In this document: positions 16,018 through 27,209 of the stretch, piece by piece | How positions within the stretch are numbered: the first letter of the stretch is position 1 | How the letters are laid out: each line of letters opens with the position of its first letter | Origin: Bacillota bacterium | Lineage (GTDB): Bacteria > Bacillota > Clostridia > Peptostreptococcales > Anaerovoracaceae | Assembly: GCA_029266295.1 (NCBI GenBank) | Contig: JAQSXD010000002.1 | Span: forward strand, 1 to 32,372 | DNA: 32,372 nt | Direction: 5' to 3' | The notes under the pieces: model-generated | Told to the model about the DNA's origin: nothing | The model's input: only the letters and a program-made list of their open reading frames with translations | Databases searched by the model: none | Translations under genes and position numbers: made by a program

Positions 16018-16599
16018 TTACTTCAGACAGAACGTTTCATACTCCTGAGGATCATTAATGTTTCTGAAGAAGGCGTTAGGATCACCGAAGCCTCTCAGCT
16101 CAGATTCCGGTATCTCTTTGATCCGTATCATGGAATAGAATCTCGTAATTTTGCGAAGATCGTTTTCCAGACAGAATCTTATGGGGTCGATGCAGGTTTT
16201 GCTGTATACGCTGCATAGCGGCTGGTATTTATCTTCAAACTTGGGCACAACTGCATCGTATCCCTCGGCTTGACTGGCCAGATAAAGAAGCAGCTGAGAA
16301 TTGATGAAAGGCATATCACACGGAACCACGATGCTGTACGCATTGCTTGCATGGGTGAGACCGGAATGGATACCGCTTAAAGGTCCCATTTGCGGGATAA
16401 TGTCTGTTATGGTTCTGACCCCCAGGGCAGCATAATCTTCCGGTGTGTTGGTAACAATCAGGATTTCGTCAAATACGGTCACTTGGTTGAGAATGATCTC
16501 AATGAGACTTTCCCCCCCCATTTTCAGGAGGGCTTTATTATTTCTATTCATCCGGCTGCTGAATCCGCCGGCAAGGATAATTGCTGTTGTTGCTGTCAT
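16018..16599 (-). CDS. mobA: Molybdenum cofactor guanylyltransferase
   Basis: TAIILAGGFSSRMNRNNKALLKMGGESLIE…VPCDMPFINSQLLLYL…VVPKFEDKYQPLCSVYS is MobA-type nucleotidyltransferase sequence. Confidence 0.87.
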   Translation of the reverse strand: MTATTAIILAGGFSSRMNRNNKALLKMGGESLIEIILNQVTVFDEILIVTNTPEDYAALGVRTITDIIPQMGPLSGIHSGLTHASNAYSIVVPCDMPFINSQLLLYLASQAEGYDAVVPKFEDKYQPLCSVYSKTCIDPIRFCLENDLRKITRFYSMIRIKEIPESELRGFGDPNAFFRNINDPQEYETFCLK

Positions 16600-16825
16600 A
16601 ATAACTCCTTGTGACCATAAGGGCTAAATCGTATCGTAGCAGAATAACCCAAGGTGATATATGGGTTGTTTATAGGCATAAGTTTTTACGATGTGTTATT
16701 TTTAAAGCCCCATGGTATAATCATAGGGTACAAAATAATCCTGAATGTTATATTGTAATTATTATTTGCAGGCGTTGAAATGGGGTCTGCTTTTTATTAT
16801 AACAATTCGAAACGAGGAGCGCTTG

Positions 16826-17464
16826 ATGGAACGTGAATTAATCTATATCAAGAACATGATACTGGTCGGTGCGACAGGACAAAACAGCGGAAAAACAACC
16901 TTTGCCACTGAGTTGATCCAAAGATGGAATCAGGAGATTCCGATCCTCGCGCTGAAGATTACCACCGTCAATCAAAAGCACGCTCATTGCGTCCGCGGAG
17001 GAGCTGGCTGCGGTGCATGCTCGAGTCCCTGCGGTGAATTCGAACTGACAGAGGAAACAGATCTGGCTTCCGGTAAAGATACATCCCTTCTGCTTGCAGC
17101 TGGGGCTCATAGGGTCTATTGGCTGAAATGCATGAAGGATCACCTTGGAGAAGCAATCCGGCAATTTCTCTCCACGATCCCGGAGGATGCTTTAATCCTG
17201 TGTGAATCGAACAGTCTTAGAAATGTTGTTCGGCCTGGCTTGTTTGTCATGCTTCAAAATTCAAAGGATTCAAGAATCAAGCCTTCTGCGGAAGAAGTAC
17301 TTCCAAAAGCTGATCTTATGATTGACAATCATTTTGAAGACGACATCAAAGACTATGTATCGCAGATCCAAATTCGACGTGGCGAAAGCGGCTTGGAGAT
17401 TCACCAGCTCGCTAAGACTTTCTCTTCAATGATATTTGCAACGGAAAAAGCATCATCAATATGA
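16826..17464 (+). CDS. MobB-like P-loop NTPase with Cys cluster (CX6CX2CX3C)
   Basis: Walker A VGATGQNSGKTTF; HAHCVRGGAGCGACSSPCGEFELTEE. Start moved from 16745 to ATG 16826 (GAGGAG upstream). Confidence 0.65.
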   Translation: MERELIYIKNMILVGATGQNSGKTTFATELIQRWNQEIPILALKITTVNQKHAHCVRGGAGCGACSSPCGEFELTEETDLASGKDTSLLLAAGAHRVYWLKCMKDHLGEAIRQFLSTIPEDALILCESNSLRNVVRPGLFVMLQNSKDSRIKPSAEEVLPKADLMIDNHFEDDIKDYVSQIQIRRGESGLEIHQLAKTFSSMIFATEKASSI

Positions 17465-17901
17465 TATACCGGGATGTTTCCCAAAACAAAGTGGATGTCG
17501 GATGCCACTGCGATCAGCTCCTCCGGCGAGCTGAGCAATTCCCTAGATCTGCCGGACCAGACCACTTCGATTTTCGGTTTGCCGCTGAGGCGGAAACCTT
17601 CTGCAATGATCAGATCAGCGTCTGCGTTCAGAGCGATCAGCTGGTCAATATTCCATTCCAGGTCAACCTTTTTCATCATAGTGACACCGTGGGGAGATGA
17701 AATCGTGACACTGTCTGCACCGGCCTGGGTGTGACGCCAGGTATCCTTGCCGGGATGATCTACGTCAAATCCATGGGTATCATGCTTCAACGTAGCAATT
17801 CGATAGTTTCTAGCTTTAAATTCCTTGATCAGTTTTTCGATCAGGATCGTCTTTCCACATCTTTTTTTTCCAACAATGCAAATGATTGGTGCCATCGCCA
17901 T
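17401..17901 (-). CDS. mobB: Molybdopterin-guanine dinucleotide biosynthesis adapter protein
   Basis: PIICIVGKKRCGKTILIEKLIKEFKARNYRIATLKHDTHGFDVDHPGKDTWRHTQAGADSVTISSP; IIAEGFR. 3' end overlaps the convergent NTPase by 64 bp. Confidence 0.92.
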   Translation of the reverse strand: MAMAPIICIVGKKRCGKTILIEKLIKEFKARNYRIATLKHDTHGFDVDHPGKDTWRHTQAGADSVTISSPHGVTMMKKVDLEWNIDQLIALNADADLIIAEGFRLSGKPKIEVVWSGRSRELLSSPEELIAVASDIHFVLGNIPVYHIDDAFSVANIIEEKVLASW

Positions 17902-17907
17902 AGCCTC

Positions 17908-19122
17908 CTATAATTTGAATATGGTAACCTTCTGCCCCTTTTCCAGCCCCGGCGTTCCCGCAGGAATATCGATGAGACAGTTGCAGTCTGAAAAGGAACT
18001 TAATACACCGGGAGAATGCTTGCTTCCGGGTTCCACAAATTCCTGGCCCTCTCGCTGAATCAATTTCCCTCGGAGCATCCGTCTTTTTGAACTCTCTTTC
18101 GGGTAGGGTGTTTCCATAATCGCTTCTGTTTTATGCAGGTCGACATCCTTATGATGGGAAACAAGTGATAGGACGGGTCTGGCGAGCAGTTCGAAGGTAA
18201 TTGCGGCAGCTGCTGGATTGCCGGAAAGGCTGATTACCGGTTTCCCTTCCAGTATGCTGCAGAGAGCAGGTGTTCCCGGCTTCATGTTCATCCTCCAAAA
18301 GAGGATTTCCGCTCCGACTGCTTTCATTGCATCCTTCAAGAGGTCCTTTTTTCCCACGGATACACCGCCAAGTGTAATGAGGATATCACAGTCTCTGGTT
18401 GCCGAAGTGATGGCTTCGCATAACTGATCCAGTTCATCGGGGGCACTGCCCAGCAGCAGCGGTTCCATCCCAAGCTCCTTAAGCCGCAAACCAATGGTAT
18501 ACAGATTGCTGTTATAAATTTTTCCGGGAGAAAGTTCGCTTCCGATATCCGTCAGTTCATCTCCGGTGCTGAGAACAGCTACCTTCGGTACGCGGTAAAC
18601 AGGAACCTCACGGAACCCCATGCTGGCAAGAATGCCGATTCCCACATAGTTCAGCAAGAAGCCATCTTTTAATAAGAGACTTCCTTTTTTGATATCTTCC
18701 CCCTTGAAACAGTAGTTTTCTCCTGGGGACAGTTGCTGACTGATGGTTACGAGATTCCCGGATTCGCTGGTGTCTTCTTGCCGTATGATACAATCGGCAC
18801 CCTTGGGAATCGGGGCTCCTGTCATGATTCTGCAGGCGGTTCCCGCGGTTAATTCCCGCTGCGGGCAGCTCCCGGCGCACACTTCTTCGATTACTTCCAA
18901 ACGGACGGGATTGGCAGCTTCTGCGCCAAGGGTGTCTGAGGATCTGAGCGCATAGCCGTCCAGAGGAGACCGATCAAAGGGTGGCTGGTCTATGGGCGCA
19001 TAAATATCTTGCGCAAGAATTCTCTGATGTGCTACGAGCAAGGGCACCGTCTCGGCAGGGGATGGGAATACCCGCGATGTGAGCATTTCCTGTGCTTCTT
19101 CTAATGTTACTTTTGTTTTCAT
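17908..19122 (-). CDS. moeA: Molybdopterin molybdenumtransferase MoeA
   Basis: PFDRSPLDGYALRSSDT; GTACRIMTGAPIPKGADCIIRQED; LSTGDELTDIG; GGVSVGKKD; SLSGNPAAAAITFELL. Start ATG 19122 after GAAAGGAG rather than 19152. Confidence 0.94.
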   Translation of the reverse strand: MKTKVTLEEAQEMLTSRVFPSPAETVPLLVAHQRILAQDIYAPIDQPPFDRSPLDGYALRSSDTLGAEAANPVRLEVIEEVCAGSCPQRELTAGTACRIMTGAPIPKGADCIIRQEDTSESGNLVTISQQLSPGENYCFKGEDIKKGSLLLKDGFLLNYVGIGILASMGFREVPVYRVPKVAVLSTGDELTDIGSELSPGKIYNSNLYTIGLRLKELGMEPLLLGSAPDELDQLCEAITSATRDCDILITLGGVSVGKKDLLKDAMKAVGAEILFWRMNMKPGTPALCSILEGKPVISLSGNPAAAAITFELLARPVLSLVSHHKDVDLHKTEAIMETPYPKESSKRRMLRGKLIQREGQEFVEPGSKHSPGVLSSFSDCNCLIDIPAGTPGLEKGQKVTIFKL

Positions 19123-19151
19123 CGATTCTTTTCTCCTTTCGCAGGAATCCA

Positions 19152-20135
19152 TTATGACAACCCGGAAGCGCGTTTGATCTTTGTTTTTACAGATAAAATC
19201 AGCGTATGTTCCAGACCGTTCAGTATGTCTGATATTGCTTTTTTTGCATCGTTATCAGGCAATTTTTTTAACAGACTGTCAGCTTTTTTCAGGTAGCTTT
19301 CCGCTAAATCAGCGGTTTTTTTGATTCCCCGCATTTTTCCAATGTGCTGACTGAGCTGATTAAAATCAGCAGAATCAATCAACTCCCAAATCCGACCCTG
19401 GTCTGCCAGGGATGTATAAATGACAGGCAGGGTGTAGAACCCCATCTTGATGTCATTTTGAACACTTTTTCCCGCAGACCCTTCGCTGGCAGTAAAATCC
19501 AGGATGTCGTCAATGATTTGAAAGGTGATTCCAAAATAGTAGCCGATCCTTTTTAGCGTTCTGCACAAATGAGCATCACAGCCGGAGATTTTTGCGCCAA
19601 GGTAGAAACTGACGGCAAAGAGGGAAGCTGTTTTATTGGCGGCAATTCGTATGTAACGGGGAATGCTGGCTTTTCGGGAATAACGGTTGTTGTACTGCAG
19701 CATTTCACCGTAAAAGATCTGATCCATGACCCGCAGAGCTTCCTGAGAATGGGAACCTTTGCTGATGAGGTTAAAGCTCCTGTTCAAAAGAAAATCGCCC
19801 ATAAATACGGCATAGTCTTTTCCGAATCTTGACTGCGCCGTTGCAATCCCCCTTCTGACAAGCGCCTCGTCGATGATATCATCGTGAATCAGCGTTGCCA
19901 TGTGCAGCATTTCAATTGCCGCAGCAGTCTCATAAATTTCATCATTCTGACCGATACCGAAATCCGATCCAAGGAGAAGAAACACAGGCCGCAATCTCTT
20001 CCCGCCGGAACCAATCATAGTGGTTAAGGTCTCCTGAACATTATTATGCCTGCTTTTGACTTGATTGTACATAATTTCTTCAACCCTGCGCATGCGTAGC
20101 GTAAGGGTTTCGTTTTTCTTTAAGCTGTCCAGCAT
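19152..20135 (-). CDS. Polyprenyl diphosphate synthase (trans-isoprenyl family)
   Basis: GGKRLRPVFLLL; HMATLIHDDIIDEALVRRG (first Asp-rich motif); FQIIDDILDF (second Asp-rich motif). Confidence 0.92.
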   Translation of the reverse strand: MLDSLKKNETLTLRMRRVEEIMYNQVKSRHNNVQETLTTMIGSGGKRLRPVFLLLGSDFGIGQNDEIYETAAAIEMLHMATLIHDDIIDEALVRRGIATAQSRFGKDYAVFMGDFLLNRSFNLISKGSHSQEALRVMDQIFYGEMLQYNNRYSRKASIPRYIRIAANKTASLFAVSFYLGAKISGCDAHLCRTLKRIGYYFGITFQIIDDILDFTASEGSAGKSVQNDIKMGFYTLPVIYTSLADQGRIWELIDSADFNQLSQHIGKMRGIKKTADLAESYLKKADSLLKKLPDNDAKKAISDILNGLEHTLILSVKTKIKRASGLS

Positions 20136-20146
20136 CGATTTATCTC

Positions 20147-20800
20147 CTAGTTATCATGTGATTGTTCCAACTCGACAAAGCTCTCGAGAATTAGGAGAAG
20201 CCCCCTGTAAAAGCTGGTCATGGCGGTTTCGCCCGCTGCGCTGCAGTAATCTCCGATCCAGCTGCCAAGGTGCTGAGTCAAGAATTCCCTCTCAATGGTT
20301 CTCATGTCGCCGAAGTCCTTTTGTGCATCTGCCTCCAGAAGGCAGAGCTGCTTCATAAAGTCCAGTTCGGTACAGAAAAAATCGGGGGAGTCGTTGGCAT
20401 AGCTTGTAGGGGCGATTCCTATGCGTTTATAGAATTTCTTAACGTTCAGGATAACGGTATGAGCGTCTTCTTTTTTCTTATAGAGCCCCTCATAGGGAGC
20501 TCTCAGTTTTCCTTTGCCAGCTGAGCGGATGAGTCTGGTACGGTCCACGGCCAATTCATCCATGATACGCTGGATGTTCTCGGCGCTGATCGCGTTCAGG
20601 TAGCTTCTGGTCATCCCGACACCCTTCCGAACTTTGGCATGATCCAGCTTGTGCAATTGCTCCAGAAAGGTTTGCATCTGCGAGCTTGTGATTCTTTGTA
20701 TGAATTCTTCATTTGGCAGGCGGATAAAGGCTTCTGTCAAAAATCCATAAATGTTCCCCCGCCACAGGGCAATTTTCACATTGTAATTATTATATGGCAT
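20147..20800 (-). CDS. TorD/DmsD-family molybdoenzyme maturation chaperone
   Basis: RGNIYGFLTEAFIRLPNEEF…PPYEGLY-like APYEGLYK, FYKRIGI…SPDFFCTELDFMKQLC…REFLTQHLGSWI typical of the TorD family; located in a dmsABC-like operon. Confidence 0.85.
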   Translation of the reverse strand: MPYNNYNVKIALWRGNIYGFLTEAFIRLPNEEFIQRITSSQMQTFLEQLHKLDHAKVRKGVGMTRSYLNAISAENIQRIMDELAVDRTRLIRSAGKGKLRAPYEGLYKKKEDAHTVILNVKKFYKRIGIAPTSYANDSPDFFCTELDFMKQLCLLEADAQKDFGDMRTIEREFLTQHLGSWIGDYCSAAGETAMTSFYRGLLLILESFVELEQSHDN

Positions 20801-20824
20801 ATGAAACTCCTTTGCTTAGTCTCT

Positions 20825-21883
20825 TTAGAAACCTGCTTTCATATAAAGCAGTCCATAACCGACAAACGCACAAATTGCAAAGCAGCCGATCAGAACCTGC
20901 GTCTCCTTTGCTGACGGGTGGTACATGCGCTTATCCTGAAACTGACTGTAAGGTTCCGGTATCATACTTTTCTGCTGAGGAAGAATTACTGCATGAAACT
21001 TCTCTATGAAGACCAGGACCAGCGAAAGTACAGCGGCGAGCAAGGGGAACACATCACTCGATGGCAAAAAATTCTCCGTAAACTGCTTCGCCAAAAGGAG
21101 CAGGATGATGAGCAGATTTAAGATGAGGACTGCTTTGCTGTCCTGATGGTTCTGCTTGAGGAGAGCGATTTTATGCGAAACAGAGGCGCCTAGCAGAAGC
21201 ACTGCAAGAATCAGCAGCAGCCCCGGCAGGGAGGCATGAATTCCGGGTGCAGGCGTTTGTAGGCCTCCTGCTGATGTTGTCAGAATCAGAAAAGCAGTGC
21301 CGCCTAATAAGCTTGCGATCAATGTTTCCAATCCCGAGAAAGCGTTGGTCTGGTAGCCCCCTTTTGTTCTGGACAGGAAAAACATGGTGTGTACTGCAAG
21401 GCAGAGATTGGCGGTAATCAGACAAAGGAGCGCCCATGCCAGCGTGATTCCTCTTGCGTCGGGAAGAACCCCGAGAAAGAAGACCAGGCTCAGAACAGTC
21501 GCCAAACCCAAGGTATAGAAATCCCACGTAAGCGGAGAGTGGAAATTATTACTTTTTATCATGAGAATTGCTCTGGAAGGCTTTCCAAGATCAATTCCCA
21601 GCAGGATCTGAGAACCGAAAAGCAGGGAAAAGGCAATGACACTTCCTACATCTGCCAGACGTTCTGCACCGTTTACATCCAGCAGAATCGCTGCCGAGAG
21701 GATCATCAGAATCCCCGTAGCCAGAGAGGAGAGGTAAAAACAACCCTGTACATAAATTCCCCATACGTAATGATCATTCAGATTGGTTTTCCGAAACCCC
21801 TGGAGCAGCTGCCTCAAAATGGCAATGCCGCCTGCAAGGGCAAGGAAACAAAGGATGATCAGTATCATCATTTCATTTTTCAT
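20825..21883 (-). CDS. DmsC-like polytopic membrane anchor subunit
   Basis: About 8 hydrophobic helices; LFGSQILLGIDLGKPSRAILMIKSNNFHSPLTWDFYT resembles DmsC; SD AGGAGGAG. Confidence 0.75.
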   Translation of the reverse strand: MKNEMMILIILCFLALAGGIAILRQLLQGFRKTNLNDHYVWGIYVQGCFYLSSLATGILMILSAAILLDVNGAERLADVGSVIAFSLLFGSQILLGIDLGKPSRAILMIKSNNFHSPLTWDFYTLGLATVLSLVFFLGVLPDARGITLAWALLCLITANLCLAVHTMFFLSRTKGGYQTNAFSGLETLIASLLGGTAFLILTTSAGGLQTPAPGIHASLPGLLLILAVLLLGASVSHKIALLKQNHQDSKAVLILNLLIILLLLAKQFTENFLPSSDVFPLLAAVLSLVLVFIEKFHAVILPQQKSMIPEPYSQFQDKRMYHPSAKETQVLIGCFAICAFVGYGLLYMKAGF

Positions 21884-21894
21884 CTCTTCTCCTC

Positions 21895-22500
21895 CTAACC
21901 GTTGATGTAATATACGGAAGGTTTTGTTTCAAGATCCTCCCGGAAGGGGCGGGCATTGCCCGCCGCGATTGCTTTGGATAGTTCACTGGACGGATCGTCA
22001 AGATCACCGAAAACGCGGCATTGGGATGGACAGGTTGTCACACATGCAGGTTCCAGACCTTTCTGAAGACGATTCAGACAAAAGGTGCACTTTACCACCG
22101 TGCCCTGCTGATATTCCTTGTGGCGCTTTTTTTCGAATAAAGTGACGGGAGCCTGCTCATAGTAGTTCTTGATTTCCCAGACGAATTGTCTTGCATCATA
22201 GGGACATGCTGTAACACAGCCCCTGCAGCCCATGCATTGATCTGCCAGCACTTCAACGATCCCATCGGGCCGTTTTACAGTTGCGCCGATAGGACATGCC
22301 TTCTCGCAGGGTGCATTTTCGCACTGCATACAGGGCATGGGAAGAAATTTCATCTTGGAATGAGGGAATTTCCCCACCTCGTATTTCATAATTTTGTGAA
22401 GGCTGACGCCGGAAGGCGTGCCGTTATGATTCCTGCAGGCGACAGTACACGCATTGCAGCCTACACATTTTGTTAAATCAATCATCATTCCGTATCTCAT
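21895..22500 (-). CDS. DmsB-like ferredoxin subunit, four [4Fe-4S] clusters predicted
   Basis: Cys motifs CVGCNACTVAC, CMQCENAPCEKACP, CMGCRGCVTACP, CTFCLNRLQKGLEPACVTTCPSQC. Confidence 0.92.
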   Translation of the reverse strand: MRYGMMIDLTKCVGCNACTVACRNHNGTPSGVSLHKIMKYEVGKFPHSKMKFLPMPCMQCENAPCEKACPIGATVKRPDGIVEVLADQCMGCRGCVTACPYDARQFVWEIKNYYEQAPVTLFEKKRHKEYQQGTVVKCTFCLNRLQKGLEPACVTTCPSQCRVFGDLDDPSSELSKAIAAGNARPFREDLETKPSVYYING

Positions 22501-25181
22501 TACGACAAACCTCCTTTTCTGATCAGTCTTACACAGGGAGCGATTTCAATTCCTCCGCTGACACTGTCCAGTGTCTCTTCCTTTGTGGTCAGAAGCCGGT
22601 TAAACAGAGGACCTTCCTTGCTCAGCGGATTGCTCTGAGCAGTCCCCATGCCATAAGCGCCGGAAATTCCTACCGCATCGGGATGGAACAGCTCAGAAAT
22701 GCGCACAAGTCCTTCCAGCTTTCCGTAACGGGATTCTACGGTTACCCGATCACCGTCCTTGATGCCCTTTTTTGCAGCAGTTGCACTGTTCAGACAGATG
22801 ACTGCCTCCCAGGGATCTTTTTGATAGATTTCCGCAAGCCAGGGATTCCCCACAACGCCGCCGATATCGGAAGAGTAGTAAGGGGTTTTCCAGTTGATGG
22901 CCCACAGATCGTATTCTTCGGATACGCCGAATTCTGAACTGGGCACCCAGTAGGGAACTGGCTTATACAGGTCGAAAACAAGGCTGTCATCTTCCACACC
23001 CGGGAATTTAATCTGATTCTTTTCGAGATTCTGCCTGAGCTGATCCGCTGTCTTTTTCAGATTGATGATATAAAACTCATGACGGGTCTTGTTATCCGGG
23101 TGATAGTAATAGTTGTAGGCCGTCTTTTTGGGCTGCCACTTGGCAATATGTCCTTCCCGCTCCAGATCTTCCATGGTTTCGCCTTCTCCGAATTTCCAGC
23201 TCTTGACCTGTAGTTCATGGATTACGGCCAGGGTATGTTTTTGATTGAGGTCAAGTAGATAAGGCGCTTTAAGGTTCAGGCCGTTTTCCTTGATGATGTA
23301 ATCCACGTCCTTGTTCAGATAATCATACATGCCGTTTTCGCCGTAAAGGATGCCGATTCTCTCTGCCAGCTCGGTAAAGATATCATCTACATGCATGGTG
23401 TTATAAATTGGCTTTACGGGCTGCCTCCTTTGGAGCATCTGCAGCGCGTGAACTTCATAGGACGCGGCCTGATGCTGAGGCCAGAATGGAGCCACTCTGG
23501 AGCGCTCCATAAAGCTGTGCTCCGGCAGGACCACATCGGACATGATGGTCGGCTCATCCATATGGTAAGCGATGGAAACACTAAATGGAATCTTTCGCAT
23601 CATATTGACATATTGCTCGGGATTTGCGTTGTACTTGATGATGTTCCCGCCGATATTCAGCCATGCCTTTACCTCGTATGTAAGGTAATATTTTTCCGGG
23701 TTGGATAATGCGTGGGCTACCAGATGGGGGGTGGTGTGGCTGTTGGGATAGAAGGTATGCATGCCGATGTCGGGAGGGAAGACAAAGGGTCTGTCTTTGG
23801 CCTCATAGCCGGGCATCATCGTACCGTCAGGTCCCGGCGCCAGCGCCTGGGGACCTCTGTATCCGCAGCCCAGACAGCCTCCCGGGACTTCGATCGCTCC
23901 GGCCAGCATATTGATGATCTTTGCCACAAGGTCGGAATAGGTTCCGCCTCGATGGTTCATAACATTCCGCTCAGTGTTGACGGAAACCGGTCGGTAGGGG
24001 AATTGGAAGCCCTCAATCTCAATGGTGCTTCCGATTCTCGCATGCTCGATAAATTCCCCTGCAATTCTTCTGATATCCTGTGCCGGTACAGTAGAGATGG
24101 ATTCCGCCCATTCCGGTGTATATTCCAGGAAGCCTTCTTTGATCAGCTGAAAACCGGTCTTCACTTCTTTTCCGCCTATTGAAAAGCTTCCTTCAAGAGC
24201 AACCTCTCCGAATTCCGCATCAAAGGCCTTTGCCTGACCGTCTGTCAAATCCCACATCATGGGCTTTCCCGTTTCCGTGTCCCTCAGGTAATCTCCTTGG
24301 GAATCGATGAGATAAGGACCGTTGGTTCTGTTTTTCAAAAACCAGTCATCATATTTCTGCACATCAAAAATGATGGAATGGGCAAGACCCAGCAAAAATG
24401 CAAGATCCGTCCCGGGCCTGATGGGCACCCATTCGCCCTTAGCAGCCTCGTAGGAGGATCGGGGGTCCACAACCACCAGCTTCATGCCCCGCTTCAGCGC
24501 CTTGGTCAGCTTTCTCGTACCGGGGACAGTGGCGATATTGGGTCCGATGGATCTTCCCAGGGTGATATGATAGTCGCAGTGTTCCAGATCAACGACAGAA
24601 ATAGGAAAATTGCCATGGATTAAGCCTGTGCCGTAATGTACCGTACAGAGCGAGCCATGAGCTCCGATTTCGTTGGGTGAGCCGAAGGCAAGGCGGAAGG
24701 GAATTCTCATGATGGTCTCTCTGTTTCCCCAGCCTTCACAAACAGCCAGCCCTCTCGGGTCTTCATCACGGACCTCCTTCAGCTTTTTCGCAGTATAATC
24801 AAGTGCCTCTTCCCAGCTGACTTCCTTCCACATGGGATCGATTTCCAGACCTTTTTCCGGATTCGTTCGGATCAAGGGGGTCTTGACGCGGTAGGGGTTA
24901 TACAGATTCATTGTAGCCGAATTACCACGGGGACACAGACTTCCGTAGTTGGGAGGGACTTGCCGTCCTTCCACCTTAACGACGACACCATCCTCAAGAT
25001 GAACGGCGGTAGCGCAGTCTCCCTGCATGCACATGCGGCATAAGCCGTGGAGAACCTGCTTCTCGCCTTCCACGGAAGGATTGGTGTTCTGCCACTGATA
25101 GGTGGAATAACCAAATACATTTTCATTGAAATCCACCTCCGACAGAACATTGTCGTAGGCGCCTTTCCTTTTTTTGAACAT
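22500..25181 (-). CDS. Molybdopterin (Mo/W-bisPGD) oxidoreductase catalytic subunit, DMSO-reductase superfamily, substrate unknown
   Basis: CRMCMQGDC…SLCPRGN N-terminal cluster site; GAHGSLCTVHYG; RGGTYSDLVAKIINMLAGAIEVPGG; AWLNIGGNI; VVLPEHSFMERS; GDRVTVESRYGKLEG. Stop/start TAATG overlap with the FeS subunit. Confidence 0.93.
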   Translation of the reverse strand: MFKKRKGAYDNVLSEVDFNENVFGYSTYQWQNTNPSVEGEKQVLHGLCRMCMQGDCATAVHLEDGVVVKVEGRQVPPNYGSLCPRGNSATMNLYNPYRVKTPLIRTNPEKGLEIDPMWKEVSWEEALDYTAKKLKEVRDEDPRGLAVCEGWGNRETIMRIPFRLAFGSPNEIGAHGSLCTVHYGTGLIHGNFPISVVDLEHCDYHITLGRSIGPNIATVPGTRKLTKALKRGMKLVVVDPRSSYEAAKGEWVPIRPGTDLAFLLGLAHSIIFDVQKYDDWFLKNRTNGPYLIDSQGDYLRDTETGKPMMWDLTDGQAKAFDAEFGEVALEGSFSIGGKEVKTGFQLIKEGFLEYTPEWAESISTVPAQDIRRIAGEFIEHARIGSTIEIEGFQFPYRPVSVNTERNVMNHRGGTYSDLVAKIINMLAGAIEVPGGCLGCGYRGPQALAPGPDGTMMPGYEAKDRPFVFPPDIGMHTFYPNSHTTPHLVAHALSNPEKYYLTYEVKAWLNIGGNIIKYNANPEQYVNMMRKIPFSVSIAYHMDEPTIMSDVVLPEHSFMERSRVAPFWPQHQAASYEVHALQMLQRRQPVKPIYNTMHVDDIFTELAERIGILYGENGMYDYLNKDVDYIIKENGLNLKAPYLLDLNQKHTLAVIHELQVKSWKFGEGETMEDLEREGHIAKWQPKKTAYNYYYHPDNKTRHEFYIINLKKTADQLRQNLEKNQIKFPGVEDDSLVFDLYKPVPYWVPSSEFGVSEEYDLWAINWKTPYYSSDIGGVVGNPWLAEIYQKDPWEAVICLNSATAAKKGIKDGDRVTVESRYGKLEGLVRISELFHPDAVGISGAYGMGTAQSNPLSKEGPLFNRLLTTKEETLDSVSGGIEIAPCVRLIRKGGLS

Positions 25182-25207
25182 ATTGCCTCCTTTGCAGTTC
25201 CTTTATT

Positions 25208-26137
25208 TTATTTCATACAGAGATCCGTAATCATAACCGCTATGACCACGGACAGTCCTGCTAGCTGATAGATATTAACTGTGGCCTGATTGGCACGAAC
25301 CAGCGTTCCGATATGATTATAATGAACGCTTGCAATCCTGCAGGCTTTGACAGCCATGGGAAGGCTGGAAAGCCCAAGGATCCATAGGAGATTTCCGGTG
25401 TAGACAGAGATGAGCAGAAATGCGGCATAAGCTGCGATAAAATTAATGGAATATACCCGGAGCCCCTTTTCCTTGCCCAGTCTGACAACCCAGTTTCTTT
25501 TATTGTTCTTCTTGTCAGCTTCATAATCGGGATATTGGTTGATCCACAGCACATTGGCGATGAGGATGCCGATGGGTATGGAAACCAAGGCTGGCAGCAG
25601 ATCGAGCTTTCCTGCCATGACAAGATACATTCCCAAAAAGATCAGCGGACCGTAGGTAATGCCCACTGTCAGTTCCCCCAGACCTCTATAGCACAGCGAA
25701 AAGGGAGGGAGACTGTAAGCGCAGGCCAGAAGTGTACCTAGAAGGCCGATGGCCAATACTCCCGGCTCGTGAAAGTATGCGATAAAAAGACCGATAGCAG
25801 AGGCCAGCGACAGCGTTATGATGCCAATGTATTTTGCTTCCTTCAAGGTCAGCAGACCTTCTGTAAGGACCTTTTTTCCTCCGCTGAAGGGAGTCACTTT
25901 GTCAGGCTCAATGGAAAGATCCACTCCTGATTTATAATCAACAATATCATTCAAGCAGTGTTTGCCGGTTTCGATCAGCATAATGCCAAGGAGTGACAGC
26001 AAACCCCATTTCAGCTCAAAACGATTGGTTTCCGCATAAGCCATGGCCGTAGCGGCAAGCATGGGAACCAGCGAGGCAATCCAGATCCTGATCCCCGCGA
26101 TTCTGCCAAGCCCCTTTAATATACGCTTCCATTCCAT
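25208..26137 (-). CDS. UbiA-family (MenA-like) membrane prenyltransferase
   Basis: NDIVDYKSGVD (NDxxDxxxD) and DYEADKKNNKRNW second Asp motif; multiple TM helices; SD GGAGG. Confidence 0.87.
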   Translation of the reverse strand: MEWKRILKGLGRIAGIRIWIASLVPMLAATAMAYAETNRFELKWGLLSLLGIMLIETGKHCLNDIVDYKSGVDLSIEPDKVTPFSGGKKVLTEGLLTLKEAKYIGIITLSLASAIGLFIAYFHEPGVLAIGLLGTLLACAYSLPPFSLCYRGLGELTVGITYGPLIFLGMYLVMAGKLDLLPALVSIPIGILIANVLWINQYPDYEADKKNNKRNWVVRLGKEKGLRVYSINFIAAYAAFLLISVYTGNLLWILGLSSLPMAVKACRIASVHYNHIGTLVRANQATVNIYQLAGLSVVIAVMITDLCMK

Positions 26138-26155: not shown

Positions 26156-26184
26156 AAAATAACAAATTGAAACAGAATAAGCAA
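26156..26184 (-). promoter_or_regulatory. Candidate promoter TTGCTT-17-TATTTT for the ubiA-molybdoenzyme operon
   Basis: Minus strand -35 (26184-26179) and -10 (26161-26156) just upstream of ubiA; the -35 overlaps ATAAGCAA, repeated at 26225-26232. Confidence 0.45.
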
Positions 26185-26315
26185 TAAAACGTTGAATTTT
26201 GAACTATAGGAGCTAATTATGGGTATAAGCAAAAGTAATGGCAAAGAAGATTTTCCTCCCAAACCGTAATGAACATGGTATACTTTTCTGAGAGATTTGT
26301 TAGGAGGGTATGATT

Positions 26316-27209
26316 TTGGATATTAAGAGTCTGGATTCTTTCATCAAGGTTGCTGATGAGAAAAGTATTTCAAAGGTTGCCAATCAGCTTTACATTTCAC
26401 AGCCGGCATTGAGCCTGCAGATCAGGAAACTGGAGGAGTCCTTCGGACACAAGCTTTTGATCAGGACCAATAAAGGCGTCCAGCTCACCGATGCGGGGCA
26501 TATTCTTGAGACTCACGCAAGAAGCATACTGAAGATCTACAATCAGGCTTTTGAAGAAGTTAATAAGCTGTTCGGCGACAGGCAGGTGATCCGTATTGAT
26601 TCCAATATTACACTGGCCACCTATGCGCTGCCCTGTGCGGTCTATGTTGCCAAGTCTCAGCCCCAATTCAAGGATTATTATCTGGATCTGACCTTCAGCA
26701 CAGTCAACCCTGTGGAAAAGAATATCATCAGCGGCATCAGCGATCTGGGATATGTTCACCGGAAGGGAGAATACCAGGATATCAAATATGTAACGATCGG
26801 TACGGATAAGATGGTTCTGGTAGCTGCTTCAAACTTTCCTGTCCCGGACAGAATTACCGTAGAAGAACTGAAGCAATATCAATTAATTCAACTCAATGAT
26901 AAATTCAACGAAAGAAAGCTGCTTTCGGAAAGCCTTGGCTGCAGCCTGAAAGAATTCAACGTAGTCTTGGCGCTGGACTCCACTGAATCGGTGAAGACCG
27001 CGGTGTTCAAGGAATTCGGTCTTTCCTTCCTTCCTGAAAGTTCTGTCAGCAAGGAATTGCAGACAAGAATTCTGAAAGAGGTTGTGGTAGAGGATCTGTA
27101 TGATGAATACCCGATTTATCTTTGCTATCTAAAAGAAAATGAGTATAATCCAAGGCTAAAGCCTTTTCTGGATTATCTGAAGGTGCGCAAGACCATGGAC
27201 TTTTGCTGA
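26316..27209 (+). CDS. LysR family transcriptional regulator
   Basis: LDSFIKVADEKSISKVANQLYISQPALSLQIRKLEESFGHKLLIRTNKGVQLTDAG. AGGAGG at 26302-26307 fits TTG 26316 (8-nt spacing) better than ATG 26310. Confidence 0.92.
   Translation: MDIKSLDSFIKVADEKSISKVANQLYISQPALSLQIRKLEESFGHKLLIRTNKGVQLTDAGHILETHARSILKIYNQAFEEVNKLFGDRQVIRIDSNITLATYALPCAVYVAKSQPQFKDYYLDLTFSTVNPVEKNIISGISDLGYVHRKGEYQDIKYVTIGTDKMVLVAASNFPVPDRITVEELKQYQLIQLNDKFNERKLLSESLGCSLKEFNVVLALDSTESVKTAVFKEFGLSFLPESSVSKELQTRILKEVVVEDLYDEYPIYLCYLKENEYNPRLKPFLDYLKVRKTMDFC

Follow-up and report, generated by a model that had tools for sequence, protein, structure and literature searches.

A molybdoenzyme operon of Anoxybacterium with built-in prenylation genes and a probable dependence on a scavenged quinone head group

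Why should an operon for a molybdoenzyme carry genes for building the tail of a lipid electron carrier? The question is raised by the window, a 32,372-nucleotide stretch (positions 1 to 32,372, forward strand, of contig JAQSXD010000002.1) taken from a draft genome of the genus Anoxybacterium, family Anaerovoracaceae (478 contigs, 82% complete; G000 in what follows). The first-pass annotation had placed eight genes in one minus-strand run at 17401-26137, with short or overlapping junctions and a divergent LysR gene. All eight open reading frames lie at these sites and in this order, each with a family match, and the junctions from ubiA to mobB amount to 26, -1 (overlap), 11, 24, 11, -1 (overlap) and 6 nt, the largest gap thus being 26 nt. 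The gene content of the run stands; the molybdenum-cofactor block continues beyond its stated limits, into mobA and an associated P-loop reading frame. The features are as follows, in the order of transcription of the operon.

26310..27209, plus strand: lysR, LysR-family regulator, divergent from the operon (Pfam HTH_1, LysR_substrate)
26216..26244, minus strand: candidate sigma-70-type operon promoter, TTGCCA-N17-CATAAT (10/12 matches)
26176..26229, minus strand: conserved intergenic block, candidate LysR operator, nearly identical in the window, G008 and G002
25208..26137, minus strand: ubiA, UbiA-superfamily prenyltransferase, MenA/DmkA-like (Pfam UbiA, 7.7e-30)
22500..25181, minus strand: cat, molybdopterin oxidoreductase catalytic subunit, PsrA/PhsA/ArrA-like (Molybdopterin 1.8e-20, Molybdop_Fe4S4, Molydop_binding)
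21895..22500, minus strand: 4x[4Fe-4S] electron-transfer subunit, DsrO/ArrB/NrfC-like (16 cluster cysteines in four groups)
20825..21883, minus strand: membrane anchor of NrfD fold with a putative quinol site (structure model and PDB fold matches)
20147..20800, minus strand: TorD/NarJ-type chaperone (Pfam Nitrate_red_del 5.1e-15, TIGR03482)
19152..20135, minus strand: pps, long-chain trans-polyprenyl diphosphate synthase, HepT/DmkB-like (Pfam 2.1e-56)
17908..19152, minus strand: moeA, MoeA molybdopterin molybdotransferase (family match)
17401..17901, minus strand: mobB, molybdopterin-guanine dinucleotide adaptor (TIGR00176, above cut-off)
16745..17464, plus strand: associated P-loop reading frame (72-87% identity in G002 and G008)
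16018..16599, minus strand: mobA, associated, MobA-like nucleotidyltransferase (Pfam NTP_transf_3 5.8e-39; syntenic in G008 and G002)

The P-loop reading frame has no Pfam or NCBIfam match; it encodes a Cys-rich stretch (CVRGGAGCGACSSPC), converges on mobB, the end of which it overlaps, and adjoins mobA. Upstream of ubiA, the candidate promoter is kept in three species, with a TTGTCA variant in one of them, and overlaps the conserved intergenic block; promoter-like sites in the region are not more numerous than in shuffled sequence. LysR orthologs of 45-97% identity are found at most of the cat loci examined in the order, and the intergenic block may serve as the operator of the regulator.

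The catalytic subunit, a protein of about 900 amino acids with an N-terminal Fe-S motif, has its best solved relatives in PsrA/PhsA and ArrA, and alignment with either places Cys179 at the position of the Mo ligand. Its scores lie well under the curated cut-offs for PhsA (218 vs 694), ArrA (151 vs 1600) and dmsA (114 vs 778); the AlphaFold model of the subunit was weak (pLDDT 67) and was left out of the fold search. The anchor gave a model with a pLDDT of 83.5. At E<=0.001 this model has eight matches in the PDB, each being either an NrfD-type subunit from ACIII or menaquinone-bound PsrC. As modelled, the anchor is of the NrfD/PsrC type; it reaches 25.4 bits on the Pfam NrfD family, just below the cut-off of 25.8, and has no DmsC match in Pfam. 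A DmsABC-type enzyme, to which the first-pass annotation referred, is ruled out by the fold of this anchor and by a dmsA score far below cut-off, together with the lack of a Tat signal.

Neither the catalytic nor the Fe-S subunit carries a Tat signal, and none is found in the clade of 16 cat sequences sharing at least 52% identity, the lone RR of L133 preceding the probable start; the sister sequences L139 and L141 carry RRTFLK, a Tat motif. Absence of the signal throughout the clade suggests that the enzyme is likely cytoplasmic, and we consider the clade, on sequence criteria, to have probably moved to the cytoplasmic face. It is of PsrA/ArrA-like character and occurs in Clostridia, Thermodesulfobacteriota and Spirochaetota. 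The neighbours of cat vary between loci, comprising TRAP, DASS and amino-acid transporters as well as HMGL-like, FAA hydrolase and fumarase genes (the fumarase identified by eye from the reading frame), and as an ensemble they indicate no more than a small organic compound that is imported. The window's genome (L044, G000:C1 135-2813), A. hadale (L046) and G039 (L045) encode a further molybdoenzyme of PsrA/ArrA-like type, distant at about 25-31% identity; in the latter two loci it is accompanied by an Fe-S subunit and by a larger protein bearing a TorD-like domain.

The prenyltransferase shares 28% identity with E. coli MenA and has no match to E. coli UbiA. Its Asp-rich motifs, NDIVDYKSGVD and NQYPDYEAD, are of the MenA type, and its top NCBIfam scores are mostly to MenA models, none of them above the curated cut-off (79.1 bits on TIGR00751, menA, for which 102.15 is required; the DmkA encoded in the flavin-based extracellular electron transfer (EET) locus of A. 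hadale scores 31.8). Human UBIAD1 is its sole PDB match. The enzyme is thus closer to MenA than to E. coli UbiA, and a MenA/DmkA-like activity is predicted for it. In the tree the operon UbiAs constitute one clade (100/100), on a long branch and separate from the EET-locus DmkA clade, so that identity with EET DmkA is ruled out. Of 391 genomes sampled from the class, 15 have UbiA relatives at 47-58% identity, in mixed contexts; given these occurrences in unrelated contexts of other Clostridia, this type of UbiA is not exclusive to the molybdoenzyme. Two other Clostridia have homologs (47-52%) within flavin-EET loci, beside Ndh2, EetA and a polyprenyl synthase, which lends support to a naphthoate substrate. 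The polyprenyl synthase shows the motifs DDIID and DDILD, with a small residue five positions ahead of the first DDxxD, as expected for long-chain products. In other Anaerovoracaceae, a UbiA and a polyprenyl synthase lie within an Hdr-like/Asr-like redox operon (L084 in G022, L086 in G014), which adds a third kind to the redox operons that contain prenylation genes; the domains at L084 include a four-cluster Fe-S protein, HdrB, HdrA, Fer4_22 and NAD-binding/DHODB Fe-S proteins.

From which source, then, would the head group come? The search for its biosynthesis covered MqnA/D, MenD and MenB. No MqnA/D (PF02621) was detected in 25 genomes, and the models of MenD (25 genomes) and MenB (13 genomes) retrieved only relatives below cut-off, also in the complete genome of A. 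hadale; positive controls passed. The lack of men genes noticed earlier in the window therefore extends, as far as checked, to the genomes of the tail-gene carriers. The idea of a near self-contained module has to be given up, for the head-group pathway is apparently absent not just from the window but from the whole genome, and self-contained quinone synthesis is ruled out by the lack of MqnA/D and of above-cut-off MenD or MenB. With no ring pathway detected, the head group is probably taken from neighbouring microbes, and the operon UbiA may use scavenged 1,4-dihydroxy-2-naphthoate (DHNA). UbiE, at scores above cut-off, is absent from all genomes with an operon UbiA and was found only in G021 and G196, in each case adjoining the genome's own UbiA.

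Based on this evidence, we propose with moderate confidence that the operon encodes a quinol-linked molybdoenzyme at the cytoplasmic face, along with the finishing of its demethylmenaquinone carrier from scavenged DHNA. The polyprenyl synthase would make the tail, and the MenA/DmkA-like UbiA would attach it to a naphthoate, most likely DHNA acquired from other microbes. Lacking UbiE, the pathway would stop at demethylmenaquinone. A type-2 NADH dehydrogenase, either the Ndh2 of the EET locus or the NDH-2-like protein encoded beside cat in relatives, could reduce the demethylmenaquinone pool. The NrfD subunit would oxidise the quinol and pass the electrons, by way of the Fe-S subunit, to the Mo centre; there, in the cytoplasm, the enzyme would reduce a substrate taken up by the cell, either an organic or a sulfur compound, the divergent LysR protein presumably sensing that substrate. 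DHNA as the prenylation substrate, its scavenging, quinol oxidation, the reductive direction and the role of LysR are the parts of the scheme that we infer.

Comparative evidence bears directly on this proposal. The whole gene order is syntenic in Anoxybacterium hadale MT110 (G008), a cultured strain from the Mariana Trench (PMC11362086) with a complete genome in one contig of 4,941,017 bases, and in one further species (G002). Among 196 relatives, cat orthologs (identity at least 54%) occur in nine and close ubiA genes (61-100% identity) in five, all five lying among the nine; within Anoxybacterium, both genes are present in G000, G002 and G008 and both are absent from the other six genomes. 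The probability of such nesting by random draw is about 5e-8 for genomes and, with three genera inside six out of 137, about 5e-5 for genera, neither value being corrected for common descent. The co-occurrence of tail genes and catalytic subunit, which the first-pass annotation named as a check, is thus borne out by synteny and by nesting. Of the two results that would have refuted its interpretation, lack of co-occurrence in relatives and a complete men/mqn operon elsewhere (looked for through MqnA/D, MenD and MenB), neither was found. Beyond the genus, G039, a MAG from another genus, carries pps (57%) and ubiA (61%) at a distance of 4 kb downstream of cat; in its sister, G114, the contig ends where G039 has the tail genes. 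In an Oscillospiraceae MAG (L128; cat 73% identical), genes for a polyprenyl synthase and an NDH-2-like flavoprotein immediately precede cat, and the single UbiA lies away from the locus, beside UbiE. Against the association speak above all the cat loci L129-L133 and L137-L139, the majority of those outside Anoxybacterium, which are without linked tail genes, and the UbiAs of 47-58% identity in mixed contexts.

The alternative that retains most force, although we deem it unlikely, is that UbiA and the polyprenyl synthase provide a general supply of demethylmenaquinone to NDH-2, EET and other reductases, their place in the operon reflecting co-regulation only. Consistent with it, no UbiA besides that of the operon was found in G000, which is incomplete (82%), similar UbiAs elsewhere stand alone or in EET loci, and Sinanaerobacter chloroacetimidivorans (G074) has the ubiA/pps pair unlinked to cat. 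(In that species the pair, L082, adjoins genes of an amine-oxidase-fold flavoprotein and an isochorismatase-family protein.) Against it, close UbiA copies are confined, among the 196 relatives, to cat-bearing genomes, and A. hadale and G002 keep the operon pair despite having a second one: the other Anoxybacterium species, these two included, and several relatives as well, possess a DmkA/DmkB pair in a flavin-EET locus composed of Ndh2, DmkB, DmkA, NusG_II/EetB-like, EetA-like and ApbE genes. In A. hadale this locus (L087) spans G008:C1:468500-488300, and it is conserved in the genus despite the lack of MqnA/D and of above-cut-off MenD; the window operon has no Ndh2, EetA, EetB or ApbE. By virtue of the EET pair, the operon's ubiA and pps may be redundant. 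Of the earlier view that the operon supplies both the enzyme and the tail-building steps, gene content and co-occurrence hold, while self-containment and a sole tail pair in the genus do not. One could go further and envisage an operon-made quinone pool, distinct from EET demethylmenaquinone in tail length or head group, that is reserved for one molybdoenzyme facing the cytoplasm; we regard this as rather doubtful. If true, it would mean that an obligate anaerobe respires one substrate only when that substrate and the scavenged head group are both present.

The proposed direction of electron flow could also be reversed, the molybdoenzyme then acting as a dehydrogenase that oxidises an imported substrate and delivers electrons through the demethylmenaquinone pool to flavin-EET. 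The EET loci that the genus and several cat-bearing genomes possess would suit such a role, as would one cat locus situated near ETF and acyl-CoA dehydrogenase genes. An NDH-2-like gene, which indicates electron entry, is however the commonest upstream neighbour of cat in relatives (TIGR03169-related and directly before cat in L128, L129, L130, L131 and L138), and the closest solved relatives, PsrA/PhsA and ArrA, are reductases, even if relatives in the group can run in reverse. Overall, we judge the dehydrogenase quite improbable. Lower still we place the idea that UbiA prenylates a substrate other than DHNA, for example an aromatic acid, with a new quinone, or a lipid without electron-carrier function, as the product: the undetected head-group genes, the score below the curated menA cut-off and the long branch are compatible with it, yet the MenA-type motifs, the best scores mostly to MenA models and the homologs in EET loci speak for the naphthoate, making another substrate distinctly improbable. 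A chance neighbourhood of unrelated co-oriented genes has next to nothing to recommend it except that most of the distant cat loci are without ubiA and pps, and it is strongly contradicted by the conservation of the order, overlapping genes included, in two species besides that of the window, by the linkage in G039 and the pps of L128, and by the co-occurrence in 196 genomes.

Our study has importance in suggesting a different physiology for these organisms. If the quinol-linked reductase fed by scavenged DHNA is true, strict anaerobes that have been described as fermenters would be capable of respiration on condition that DHNA is cross-fed to them. The description of A. hadale makes no mention of quinones (PMC11362086); the genetic unit is present in this cultured strain, MT110, and the proposal is so rendered testable. 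The operon additionally points to a probably cytoplasmic PsrA/ArrA-like clade. In the open-access literature searched, we found no report of molybdoenzyme operons with prenyltransferases, those of Anaerovoracaceae included. The union of a respiratory enzyme with the final steps of quinone synthesis in one operon is known for oxygen, in Streptococcus agalactiae, and for metal reduction, in EET.

Regarding the enzyme itself, the resemblance to DmsABC consists in a set of catalytic, four-cluster Fe-S and membrane subunits with a TorD/DmsD-like chaperone, and it ends at the NrfD-type anchor of the window operon and at a catalytic subunit that lacks Tat and scores 114 vs 778 on dmsA. PsrABC/PhsABC and ArrAB come nearer, in that they share a Mo subunit with N-terminal Fe-S motif, a 4x[4Fe-4S] subunit and the aligned Mo-ligand Cys, and Psr/Phs also the NrfD-fold anchor; unlike them, the window enzyme is without Tat, has PhsA and ArrA scores far below cut-off and is linked to prenylation genes. 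The flavin-EET locus of Listeria and Lactiplantibacillus (ndh2, dmkA, dmkB, eetA, eetB, apbE/fmnB) offers the parallel of a DmkA/DmkB-like pair in a redox operon, whereas the redox partner in the window operon is a molybdoenzyme and the EET locus of A. hadale is separate. L. plantarum needs exogenous DHNA, and its dmkA and dmkB mutants are still capable of EET (PMC10746273).

There exists, finally, a close analogy to the ndh-cydAB-menA operon of S. agalactiae, a host that converts imported DHNA into DMK-10 (PMC6030563). In both cases, a quinol-linked terminal enzyme (putatively so here) and MenA (or its predicted like) are brought together in one operon, demethylmenaquinone is the expected product, and the remainder of the menaquinone pathway is missing, as searched here for MqnA/D, MenD and MenB. 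The two differ in that the S. agalactiae operon encodes cytochrome bd and the window operon an anaerobic-type molybdoenzyme, for whose carrier the use of DHNA is predicted; the window operon moreover holds a polyprenyl synthase and Mo-cofactor genes and is without NDH-2, an NDH-2-like gene standing beside cat in relatives. On this analogy, the window operon is best read as an anaerobic counterpart of ndh-cydAB-menA in which a molybdoenzyme replaces the oxidase.
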